The notes under the pieces: model-generated | What the model saw: only the letters and a program-made list of their open reading frames with translations | Told to the model about the DNA's origin: nothing | Databases searched by the model: none | Source: a virus | Direction: 5' to 3' (one strand) | Length of the DNA stretch: 30,479 nucleotides | IMG/VR virus record: IMGVR_UViG_3300046796_000125 | Location: 1-30,479 of that record | Shown: positions 1 to 30,479 of the stretch, in pieces | Layout of the letters: each line of letters opens with the position of its first letter | Numbering within the stretch: the first letter of the stretch is position 1 | Translations under genes and position numbers: made by a program

Positions 1-127
1 GCGGTTTCGAAACCGCATCCGGTAACGGAAATCGCAGCGATCGCGATCACGGAGGAGCAGCAGGCGGCGATCGGCAAGGACCGCGCGAAAGCCGACGCCG
101 CCGCGGAGAGCCGCGCTCGGCGCGAGG
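1..127. repeat. Terminal direct repeat, left copy (circular contig overlap)
   Basis: These 127 bases are identical to the last 127 bases (30353-30479). An exact overlap of 127 bases is a common final k-mer length in assemblers, so I read it as the join of a circular sequence and not as a packaged terminal repeat. An open reading frame passes through the join without interruption, which supports circularity. Confidence 0.9.
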
Positions 128-726
128 CGTCCCAGAAGGCGTTACCGAATGCGGCGTTCGACCTCCGCATTGGCGACGCGCGCGAGGTGCTCGCCGATGT
201 TCCCGCCGATTCCGTGCATCTGATTCTGACCGATCCGCCCTACGGCGACGACGCCGAGCCGCTGTATCGCTGGCTCGCCGAATGGTCGGCGCGCGTGCTC
301 GTCCCAGGCGGATCGTTGGTGTGCTTCACGGGACAATCCCGGCTCGATCGCGATCTGCAAATCTTTTCCGAACGTCTGCGTTGGTGGTGGCTCCTGGCGC
401 TGCGGCACAACCAATCGCAGCGGCTCCCGGGTAAGTTCGTGATGGCCGAGTTTAAGCCAGTCGTGTGGTTCGTGAAGGATCACCGCCGCGGCCGCACGCT
501 CGTCAACGACGTGCTCCGCAGCGATCGCCGCGAGAAGGACGGGCACGACTGGGGGCAAGGCGACGGCGGCGTCGAGCTGCTGATCCAGCAACTTACGGAA
601 CCCGACGAGATCGTGGCCGACCCCTTCGCGGGTACGGCCCGTTGGGGCGAGATTGCCGTCCGCATGGGTCGCGCGTGGGTCGGTGCTGACGTAGTTCGTG
701 GTGGCGACTCGGTCGTGGTGGCGTGA
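1..726 (+). CDS. HTH-containing adenine-type DNA methyltransferase, C-terminal part (gene continues from 30014)
   Basis: This is the catalytic part of a 354-residue protein that starts at 30014 and crosses the contig join. It holds a DPPYGDD motif (joined residues 191-197) and, near the end, DPFAG (320-324). DPPY is the catalytic motif IV of N6-adenine or N4-cytosine methyltransferases and DPFAG is the S-adenosylmethionine-binding motif I. The order IV then I is that of the beta class. The window part is 241 residues and ends with TGA at 724-726, directly before the next ATG. The protein probably methylates phage DNA, either to evade host restriction or for regulation. The canonical DPFxGSG is changed to DPFAGTARWGE, so activity is likely but not certain. 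No cognate endonuclease gene is next to it, which fits a solitary phage methyltransferase. Confidence 0.85.
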   Translation, partial: AVSKPHPVTEIAAIAITEEQQAAIGKDRAKADAAAESRARREASQKALPNAAFDLRIGDAREVLADVPADSVHLILTDPPYGDDAEPLYRWLAEWSARVLVPGGSLVCFTGQSRLDRDLQIFSERLRWWWLLALRHNQSQRLPGKFVMAEFKPVVWFVKDHRRGRTLVNDVLRSDRREKDGHDWGQGDGGVELLIQQLTEPDEIVADPFAGTARWGEIAVRMGRAWVGADVVRGGDSVVVA

Positions 727-5544: not shown

Positions 5545-5659
5545 CCAAGAACTATGCCAACCGAAGTCGGGAAACCCTCCGGCCCGAGCATGTTTGGCGG
5601 AGGTTTCAAACCGGTCCTAGGAATCAAATGAGGGCCTCTAGAATTCAAATGGGCGCACG
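5545..5659. other. Gap between HNH and terminase genes; candidate cos region
   Basis: This 115-bp gap between the HNH and small-terminase genes is less G+C-rich than its surroundings. It has a run of seven G just before the HNH stop, an 11-bp palindrome GGTTTCAAACC (5602-5612), and an imperfect short repeat (GGAATCAAATG and GAATTCAAATG, 5620-5630 and 5640-5650). It includes a possible 25-codon reading frame at 5554-5631 that I do not call as a gene. Position beside HNH and terminase makes it the natural place for a cos site, but no cleavage sequence can be assigned. Confidence 0.3.
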
Positions 5660-14837: not shown

Positions 14838-15209
14838 ATGGATCGCTGCTCGATCGTCGTCCCGGAGACCGTGCGCCTCGCGCTGTCGAATGGCGACTAT
14901 CTCGACGTCACGAAGGAACTCAACGCCGGCGAGTACTACGACATGCTGATCGCCATGAGCGAACGGAAACCGTTTGCGAAACCGCTGGCCTATCTCGTCG
15001 CGTGGTCGCTGACGGGCGTCGGCGATACGCCGATTCCGTACGACCTCGACATGCCCGAGGACGTGCGGCGCTCGACCCTCCGGTCGCTCAAGGTCGCGAA
15101 GATGCGCGAGATCACGACGGCCCTCGACAAACACGAGGCCGCCGCCGACGCGGCCCTCGAGGCAAAAAAAAAGATACCCGATTCCGCACCCGGGTCCTCT
15201 CCACCATGA
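14838..15209 (+). CDS. Tail assembly chaperone, short form (G-like)
   Basis: The unshifted product is 123 residues. It contains TVRLALSNGDYLDVTKELNA, then EYYDMLIAMSERKPF and RRSTLRSLKVAKMREITTAL, typical of the G-like member of the pair. The final codons in this frame, after EAKKK, give IPDSAPGSSPP and look like readthrough of non-coding frame. Near the end is a nine-A run, at which a -1 shift yields the longer product described next. G-like chaperones coat the tape measure before tube assembly. Confidence 0.82.
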   Translation: MDRCSIVVPETVRLALSNGDYLDVTKELNAGEYYDMLIAMSERKPFAKPLAYLVAWSLTGVGDTPIPYDLDMPEDVRRSTLRSLKVAKMREITTALDKHEAAADAALEAKKKIPDSAPGSSPP

Positions 15210-25480: not shown

Positions 25481-25601
25481 CAAGGTTAGGTTGCCCCAAG
25501 GGCACATTTCGGCCCGTTGTGGCCTGTCGTGGCCTTGGGTTTCGAACAGCCAAATTGCATTATTTTGGTGCAAATTATTGAATGTTCTGGGAATTTCGAG
25601 G

Positions 25602-29145: not shown

Positions 29146-30014
29146 CCACGATCGATCGCCCTGGTATCTACACGATCCCCGCGGTCGACTACCATGCCGA
29201 TCCCTGCCCGGAACCGTCGCTCTCGAGCTCGATCGCCAAAATGCTCTGCTTCTCCTCAGCCCTGCACGCCCACCACGCCCACCCGCGCCTGAACCCGGCC
29301 GCTGAACCCGAGAACGGCGATCACTTCGACATCGGCACGGCCGCGCACGCGCTCGTGCTCGAAGGGCGCGACACCATCGCGATCATCGACGCGCCCGACT
29401 GGCGCACGAAGGCGGCCAAGGACCAACGCGACGCCGCCCGCGCCGCCGGCAAAACGCCCTTGCTGGCGCACGTCCACCAGGACGTGATCGCGATGGTCGC
29501 CGCGTTGCGCGGGCAGCTGCACGACCATACCGACGGCGGCGGCCTGATGTTCACCAATGGCGAGGCCGAACAAACCGTGATCTGGCGCGAGGACGACGTG
29601 TGGTGCCGCGCGCGCCTCGACTGGATTCGCACCGACCCGTACGCGATCGACGACTACAAAACCACCAGTGCCAGCGCCAACCCTGACACGTGGGCACGGA
29701 CCATGTTCAGCGCCGGGTACGATCTGCAAGCCGCGTGGTACCTGCGCGGCCTGCGCGCGATCACCGGCGAACGTCTCGACGATCCGGCCGCGTTCCGGTT
29801 CTGCGTGCAAGAAACCTATGCGCCGTACGCCGTCAGCGTGATCGCGCTCAACCCGGACGCCATGTTCCTGGCCGAAAAAAAGTGCGAGTACGCGCTCGAC
29901 CAATGGCGCGACGCCCGCGCGCGGAACGATTGGCGCGGCTACCCGCGGCGCACCGCCTACGCCATCTTGCCGGCCTGGGAAGAGGCGCGCTGGCTCGAGA
30001 AGGAACTGCGCTGA
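29142..30014 (+). CDS. RecE-like PD-(D/E)XK exonuclease
   Basis: A 290-residue protein resembling the RecE/exonuclease VIII nuclease (PDDEXK_1 type). Key sequence: AEQTVIWREDDVWCRARLDW with E143 and D160, then YAIDDYKTT with D171 and K173 (the D-x-K core). Upstream is GTAAHALVLEG (residues about 64-74), the conserved GTAvHalvLE element. The C-terminus has FSAGYDLQAAWYLRGL, also typical. Such 5'-3' exonucleases produce single strands for a recombinase or annealing protein; here the partner is probably the Sak4-like ATPase at 1245. The start overlaps the metallopeptidase stop as ATGA, and the end overlaps the methyltransferase ATG. Confidence 0.85.
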   Translation: MTTIDRPGIYTIPAVDYHADPCPEPSLSSSIAKMLCFSSALHAHHAHPRLNPAAEPENGDHFDIGTAAHALVLEGRDTIAIIDAPDWRTKAAKDQRDAARAAGKTPLLAHVHQDVIAMVAALRGQLHDHTDGGGLMFTNGEAEQTVIWREDDVWCRARLDWIRTDPYAIDDYKTTSASANPDTWARTMFSAGYDLQAAWYLRGLRAITGERLDDPAAFRFCVQETYAPYAVSVIALNPDAMFLAEKKCEYALDQWRDARARNDWRGYPRRTAYAILPAWEEARWLEKELR

Positions 30015-30479
30015 TGAACAAGGCGCTCGCGGAAGAACTGACCCAAGCGGTCGGCCAATCGACCTCTGGCGCGTGGCGCACGATCGCGAGCCTCAAGGCC
30101 CTCGGCGTGCCGAAAGCACTGGGCCTGACCAACGAGCAATGGCTCAAGAAATATCTTGGCAACTACATTCAGCTCGCGGTCGCCGAACAATACGACGTCC
30201 TCGCTGCTGCGAAGGCGGCTGGCTTATCGAACCGAGAGATCGCGAAGGTGGCGGGTGTCGACGAGAGCACGATTCGAAAGGATCTCAGTGCGGTTTCGAA
30301 ACCGCGGCGCGGTCAGAAATATAAAGTAAAAAAGCAAGGTCGAACTCAGAATGCGGTTTCGAAACCGCATCCGGTAACGGAAATCGCAGCGATCGCGATC
30401 ACGGAGGAGCAGCAGGCGGCGATCGGCAAGGACCGCGCGAAAGCCGACGCCGCCGCGGAGAGCCGCGCTCGGCGCGAGG
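30014..30479 (+). CDS. HTH-containing adenine-type DNA methyltransferase, N-terminal part (continues at 1)
   Basis: The first 113 residues before the contig join, plus the repeated 127 bases. Residues 70-91 (GLSNREIAKVAGVDESTIRK) form a helix-turn-helix of the type found in phage regulators. A linker of about 90 residues follows, containing AVSKP twice and a charged, alanine-rich stretch, and leads into the methyltransferase domain described at 1-726. The full protein is 354 residues. The HTH could guide target choice or regulate the gene itself; two palindromes inside the linker-coding sequence are candidate sites. The start overlaps the exonuclease stop (TGATG). Confidence 0.8.
   Translation, partial: MNKALAEELTQAVGQSTSGAWRTIASLKALGVPKALGLTNEQWLKKYLGNYIQLAVAEQYDVLAAAKAAGLSNREIAKVAGVDESTIRKDLSAVSKPRRGQKYKVKKQGRTQNAVSKPHPVTEIAAIAITEEQQAAIGKDRAKADAAAESRARRE
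30290..30305. repeat. Palindrome copy 1 in the methyltransferase gene
   Basis: GCGGTTTCGAAACCGC is a perfect 16-bp palindrome. The same 16 bases recur 63 bp downstream at 30353-30368. Both copies lie in the region coding for the linker after the HTH domain and both encode AVSKP in the same frame. Confidence 0.85.
30351..30370. repeat. Palindrome copy 2 in the methyltransferase gene
   Basis: This copy extends to a 20-bp perfect palindrome, ATGCGGTTTCGAAACCGCAT. The terminal repeat and the contig join begin at 30353, inside this palindrome. The 63-bp distance to copy 1 is about six helical turns. Confidence 0.85.
30353..30479. repeat. Terminal direct repeat, right copy
   Basis: These 127 bases equal positions 1-127. 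Joining the ends gives a circle of 30,352 bp with an intact methyltransferase gene across the join. Confidence 0.9.

Follow-up and report, generated by a model that had tools for sequence, protein, structure and literature searches.

DNA methyltransferases with an N-terminal HTH, such as M.SsoII and M.EcoRII, are thought to bind a palindromic operator and to control their own gene. HTH regulators of the LuxR/GerE type act as dimers on sites with dyad symmetry. In phage lambda, the replication origin lies inside the O gene, and the N-terminal half of the O protein binds the iterons of this origin (PMC4488673).

The window analysed here, the full 30,479 nucleotides of IMG/VR virus record IMGVR_UViG_3300046796_000125, carries a gene for an HTH-methyltransferase with two palindromes in its coding sequence, at and just after the HTH codons. 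From sequence comparison with related genes we consider the best overall explanation (probability roughly 0.7) to be that the protein's own HTH binds these palindromes as a dimer, at sites within the gene that encodes it.

Results

Bases 1-127 of the window are exactly identical to 30353-30479, a terminal repeat that is likely an assembly k-mer overlap (k=127). The record therefore represents a complete circular (or circularly permuted) genome of 30,352 bp, and its contig start coincides with a palindrome. The HTH-methyltransferase gene (354 aa) spans the join, running from 30014 to 30352 and then from 1 to 726, and its ATG overlaps the stop codon of the exonuclease gene upstream (Table 1). 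It belongs to an early operon with a phage metallopeptidase gene and an exonuclease VIII-like gene on its 5' side and an unknown gene, a Sak4-like ATPase gene and a replication-initiation-like ORF on its 3' side; a tyrosine integrase and regulators of the Cro/CI and HTH_17 types are encoded nearby. An ORF at 2558-2905 (115 aa) matches only the N-terminal third of the 295-aa PHROG 'replication initiation protein' families and is possibly truncated or split.

Table 1. Features of the HTH-methyltransferase locus (window coordinates)
Feature	Position	Strand	Remarks
HTH-methyltransferase gene, 5' part	30014..30479	+	residues 1-155; rest at 128-726
HTH-methyltransferase gene, 3' part	1..726	+	stop 724-726; bases 1-127 duplicate 30353-30479
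HTH	30164..30298	+	residues 51-95; helices 51-68, 73-80, recognition helix 84-95 DESTIRKDLSAV; AF2
Methyltransferase domain	58..693	+	residues ~133-344; TDPPY motif; PF01555, PHROG 67
Palindrome copy 1 GCGGTTTCGAAACCGC	30290..30305	.	codons 93-98, end of recognition helix/start of linker
Palindrome copy 2 ATGCGGTTTCGAAACCGCAT	30351..30370	.	20 bp; centre 63 bp (6.0 turns) from copy 1
Spacer between the 16-bp palindromes	30306..30352	.	40% GC in a 67% GC genome
Copy 2 repeated by the 127-bp terminal overlap	1..18	.	same site, not a third

The protein consists of an N-terminal helical domain, the HTH, a linker modelled with low confidence and an N6/N4 methyltransferase domain (AF2 model, mean pLDDT 81.6; PF01555, PHROG 67). 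The methyltransferase domain has a PF01555 score of 45.2 bits against a gathering score of 26.7, and TDPPY is present in the translation. All HTH-family profile matches of the window protein lie below the curated cut-offs; its modelled HTH superposes on LuxR/DosR C-domains with an rmsd of 0.6 Å over 36 residues, at a non-significant E-value. In Pfam searches the GerE profile had no match in the window protein and matched relatives below the curated cut-off, and a ParB N-terminal/CTPase domain was absent from the window protein. The window protein and related proteins match PHROG 664, 'DNA binding protein', in their N-terminal regions.

The first-pass annotation had described two copies of GCGGTTTCGAAACCGC within this gene. 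A sequence scan confirmed both, at 30290-30305 and 30353-30368 (63 bp start-to-start), together with the extension of the second palindrome to 20 bp (30351-30370) and the pentapeptide AVSKP encoded by each copy in the frame of the gene. A third match at 1-16 was rejected as a separate site, since the terminal overlap repeats copy 2 there; the circular genome has exactly two GCGGTTTCGAAACCGC sites. Four 16-mers with up to three mismatches from GCGGTTTCGAAACCGC were found versus 0.59 expected, and synonymous-codon shuffling of the linker gave a comparable pair at p = 0.0002. Partial relatives of the palindromes, proposed at 5602-5612 (GGTTTCAAACC) and 25537-25549 (GGGTTTCGAAC), proved weak and not significant against chance; the former, in the gap between HNH and terminase, is an odd palindrome of 11 bp, half-site-like and indistinguishable from chance. 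A match with three mismatches at 14970 was discarded as chance-level, and an exact IMG/VR match (L006:2363-2378) lies on an unrelated contig, by eye in the T-arm of a tmRNA/tRNA-like gene (tmRNA 3' end).

The first relative found, a homologue on contig L005 (G001), carries a different pair at the same location, GGGACAAATGTCCC twice and 63 bp apart. A second (L009/G002), with a related N-terminal domain and no methyltransferase, has the same pair as G001 but at a distance of 54 bp. The other 22 members came from scans with N-terminal alignments and from the first search. In this sample, drawn mainly from contigs of uncultivated viruses, a palindrome pair was present at or just after the HTH codons in 25/25 genes (the window gene and 24 relatives; 24 of the N-terminal family, window included, and one with another N-terminus), and the palindrome sequence differed in nearly every gene (Table 2). 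One site is imperfect in each of G020, G018 and L180. The four genes with spacings of 73 or 84 bp (G006, G018, G016 and G021) have little linker, with the partner site farther upstream among the codons of the HTH; these partners were recognised only when spacing limits were widened after the first pass. Inspection revealed the pattern before any formal definition was set, and the only out-of-sample check consists of L178-L180, which were obtained afterwards and had the pair at the expected place in 3/3 cases (two strict, one differing by 1 bp in the central spacer).

Table 2. Half-sites and centre-to-centre spacings of the palindrome pairs
Gene	Half-site	Centre spacing (bp)	Remarks
Window	GCGGTTTC	63	
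G001	GGGACA	63	
G002	GGGACA	54	
G003	GCGGGA	63	
G004	GATGCA	54	
G005	GATGCA	51	
G006	GTCCC	73	
G007	GGTCCA	51	
G008	GTTCC	63	
G009	CGTTC	63	
G010	TGTCCA	63	
G011	GTTGCA	63	
G012	TTCGGCA	51	
G013	TGCCC	63	
G014	CTTGCA	51	
G015	TGCGTCA	54	
G016	TGTTA	84	
G017	TGTCCA	53	
G018	TGTCC(A)	73	imperfect, read by eye
G019	GTGGTGGA	54	
G020	GGTA(CC)	54	imperfect
G021	GCCAA	84	
L178	GTTGCA	63	
L179	TGGGGCA	54	
L180	GTCCC	62.5	

Methyltransferase-domain relatives with other N-termini (L099-L177) showed no strong palindrome pairs, and the trait therefore belongs to the HTH, not to the methyltransferase. Comparable palindromes were not found in the Gordonia Jujuvirus HTH proteins (GVSKP) or in Sour gp51, and tblastn of plasmids and phages with G001-type N-termini gave no matches. 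Among the members, the fused methyltransferase is of the PF01555, MT-A70 or Dam type, or absent; it is absent in about ten, all with paired palindromes (assessed by Pfam in eight members and, for the others, judged visually from the sequence and length of the protein).

This variation bears on the earlier proposal that the palindromes hold the methylation target, with TTCGAA as the recognition sequence of the fused enzyme. A methyltransferase domain is indeed fused in the window protein and TTCGAA is central in both palindromes, but the motif occurs in the genome about as often as expected (5 occurrences versus 4.4) and is missing from the palindromes of the relatives. Because about ten members have their pairs without a methyltransferase, TTCGAA methylation is not the general explanation, and although several methyltransferase types are fused, the sites follow the HTH helix. 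We regard a methylation target as very improbable; the optional nature of the methyltransferase argues against this role and for an exchangeable effector.

We also considered whether the palindromes could be a by-product of a repeated peptide (the AVSKP motif) and codon usage, or arise by chance. Most members do have both copies in frame, with one pentapeptide encoded twice. Against this, inverted or out-of-frame copies (G007, G017, G006 and G018) encode different peptides, the peptides vary between members while palindromy is kept, and synonymous shuffles that preserve the protein seldom reproduce such pairs (p 0.0002-0.02 for most genes). The two G007 copies are reverse complements of each other, those of G017 are inverted and in different frames, and across members the sites occupy codon phases 0, 1 and 2. 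Strong pairs numbered 14 in the HTH genes versus 10, mostly GC-rich simple sequence, elsewhere in 750 kb of contigs, and perfect copies were confined to the own gene in the 20 contigs scanned. Since the copies of some pairs differ in orientation or reading frame, it is the DNA rather than the peptide that is conserved. The first-pass annotation had left open whether DNA or protein function keeps the palindromes: the DNA side of that statement holds, and a protein-level reason fails for the family. Peptide repetition or chance is the least credible of the explanations considered here.

The centre spacings of the 25 genes were 51 (four genes), 53, 54 (six), 62.5, 63 (nine), 73 (two) and 84 bp (two). 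At 10.5 bp per turn, the seven distinct values correspond to 4.86, 5.05, 5.14, 5.95, 6.0, 6.95 and 8.0 turns, so all lie within 0.15 turn of 5, 6, 7 or 8 turns of DNA. A constraint to in-frame spacings (multiples of 3) would by itself also permit 57, 60, 66 and 69, which did not occur among the 25 genes. Phasing was significant in a Rayleigh test (p ~2e-8, with the 25 genes treated as independent) and in a Monte Carlo test on the seven distinct values (p 0.002). Because the genes are related, these tests and the pairwise tests below overstate independence.

The arrangement of the sites can also be read as that of a lambda-O-like replication initiator, in which case the palindromes would be origin iterons within the initiator gene, bound by the HTH to initiate replication of the phage DNA. 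Within the gene the sites directly follow the DNA-binding domain, comparable to lambda with its origin inside O (PMC4488673), the window gene is located between exonuclease VIII-like and Sak4-like/replication-initiation-like genes, and both the window and G001 have an AT-rich spacer. However, there are just two sites, 51-84 bp apart, and no clustered iteron array; no consistent AT-rich (low-GC) element was present near the sites in 23 genomes, the AT-rich spacer being common to the window and G001 only (2/19). Moreover, the window has a separate replication-initiation-like ORF, and a helicase-loader partner was not identified. We consider an initiator unlikely, although it is the chief alternative to the preferred reading.

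Half-site similarity tracked nine recognition-helix residues (Mantel r 0.41, p 1e-4; n=26 proteins, which are related), and the correlation was the same when partial on upstream identity (r 0.41, p 1e-4; n=26). It was not correlated with upstream-domain identity itself (r 0.04, p 0.30; n=26). Helix residues and site register were picked by eye before testing. The rows for G019 and G020 are approximate: their sites are odd-centred and were fitted to the register by omitting the central base, and in G019 the second site was given the same two central positions as the first. Without G019, G020 and G021 the result was unchanged (n=23, r 0.45, p 5e-5).

Individual pairings follow the same trend: SKSQ/SKSQV helices go with TGTCCA (G010, G017 and G018), NEATV/DNATV helices with GTTGCA, and DQ(A/S)TV helices with GATGCA (G004, G005 and orf30 of Propionibacterium phage PFR1). 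The PFR1 protein has the helix DQSTVVRD, an upstream region that is only ~17% identical, the half-site GATGCA and one palindrome of 28 bp, GGCAGGTGATGCATTTGCATCACCTGCC, directly after the HTH (L043:2623-2650). G012 and G002 are an exception, with the same helix (TEKT) and different half-sites. The family consensus half-site is TGnnnCA with dyad symmetry, a form that fits a dimeric HTH; the window half-site matches the family register only after a 1-bp shift.

Single palindromes were seen in other HTH proteins. Gene 59 of Agrobacterium phage Rivra encodes an HTH-MT-A70 protein whose N-terminal region is ParB-like by eye; it has a 21-bp palindrome, TGGTGGGGAAATTCCCCACCA, just after the HTH (L045:2075-2095), encoding GGEIPH. 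GEIP-like words are common after HTHs of this kind, and single self-sites may therefore be widespread. Gene 10 of Mycobacterium prophage prophiGD43A-1 has one palindrome, TCGGAAAATTCCGA, after its HTH (SENS peptide; L010:1804-1817).

Diversification of specificity independently of the rest of the domain would also be expected under selection against cross-recognition between co-resident elements. This raises the alternative that the pair serves the HTH protein as a centromere-like site or as an immunity-type specificity determinant for an extrachromosomal or co-resident prophage, with which the restriction of the sites to their own locus agrees. An integrase is present in the window, though, a scan of ten neighbours yielded neither a ParB nor a Walker ParA domain, and for a spreading centre of the ParB kind two sites would be a small number. 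A partition or incompatibility function thus appears quite improbable, more so than an initiator.

Discussion

The phased pairs in 25/25 genes and the covariation of the sites with the helix strongly support the suggestion that the HTH of the same protein recognises the palindromes, and from both we infer binding. With high confidence we predict that the palindromes are sites of the own HTH, and the gene thus seems to reveal the DNA target of its own protein. Given such sites, autoregulation or a roadblock has about an even chance of being their role, an origin or partition-like centre is a clearly weaker candidate, and some other role is less likely still.

Under the preferred reading, an HTH dimer would occupy each palindrome, and the two dimers would lie on the same DNA face and bind cooperatively. 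The complex on the gene body would act in negative regulation of the early operon, via a transcription roadblock or a short loop; the restriction of the sites to their own gene makes negative autoregulation the likely use. In this scheme the HTH would tether an interchangeable effector, the fused methyltransferase (N6/N4, MT-A70, Dam-type or none, according to the phage). Since helix and sites lie within about 100-150 bp, recombination could swap them as one specificity cassette.

It is somewhat probable that these genes represent a widespread class of self-addressed phage HTH proteins, with phased intragenic operator pairs and with helix and target as a rapidly diversifying cassette on varied effectors. 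If so, the target of an uncharacterised HTH protein could be read straight from its gene, and many natural helix-site pairs would be available for learning a recognition code. It would also add a regulatory arrangement, an operator pair in the gene body with integral helical spacing and an exchangeable effector, and account for repeated pentapeptides (for example GTNVP, AVSKP, DANAS and AGNPA) after phage HTH domains. Searches of the full-text literature, mostly of papers available without subscription, returned no account of the arrangement under any name, and it may be new.

Among described families, PHROG 664 matches the N-terminal region, but its annotation gives no function or binding site. 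The HTH of the window protein superposes well on the DosR C-domain of the LuxR/GerE regulators, a similarity of fold only; unlike these, the protein has no receiver or ligand domain and has a distinct N-terminal helical domain. With M.SsoII and M.EcoRII it shares the combination of an HTH (in the AF2 model) and a DNA methyltransferase (PF01555 above cut-off) in one protein. Their operator, however, lies in the promoter region, whereas here the perfect sites occur only within the coding region, and the same module of HTH and sites also exists without a methyltransferase. The likeness to lambda O and its origin is that sites of a phage DNA-binding protein, here predicted from sequence, lie in its own coding sequence. 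In contrast to the four clustered 19-bp iterons and the AT-rich element of lambda, the present genes have two palindromes 5-8 turns apart and no conserved AT-rich element; their site sequence varies with the recognition helix, and a methyltransferase is often fused.
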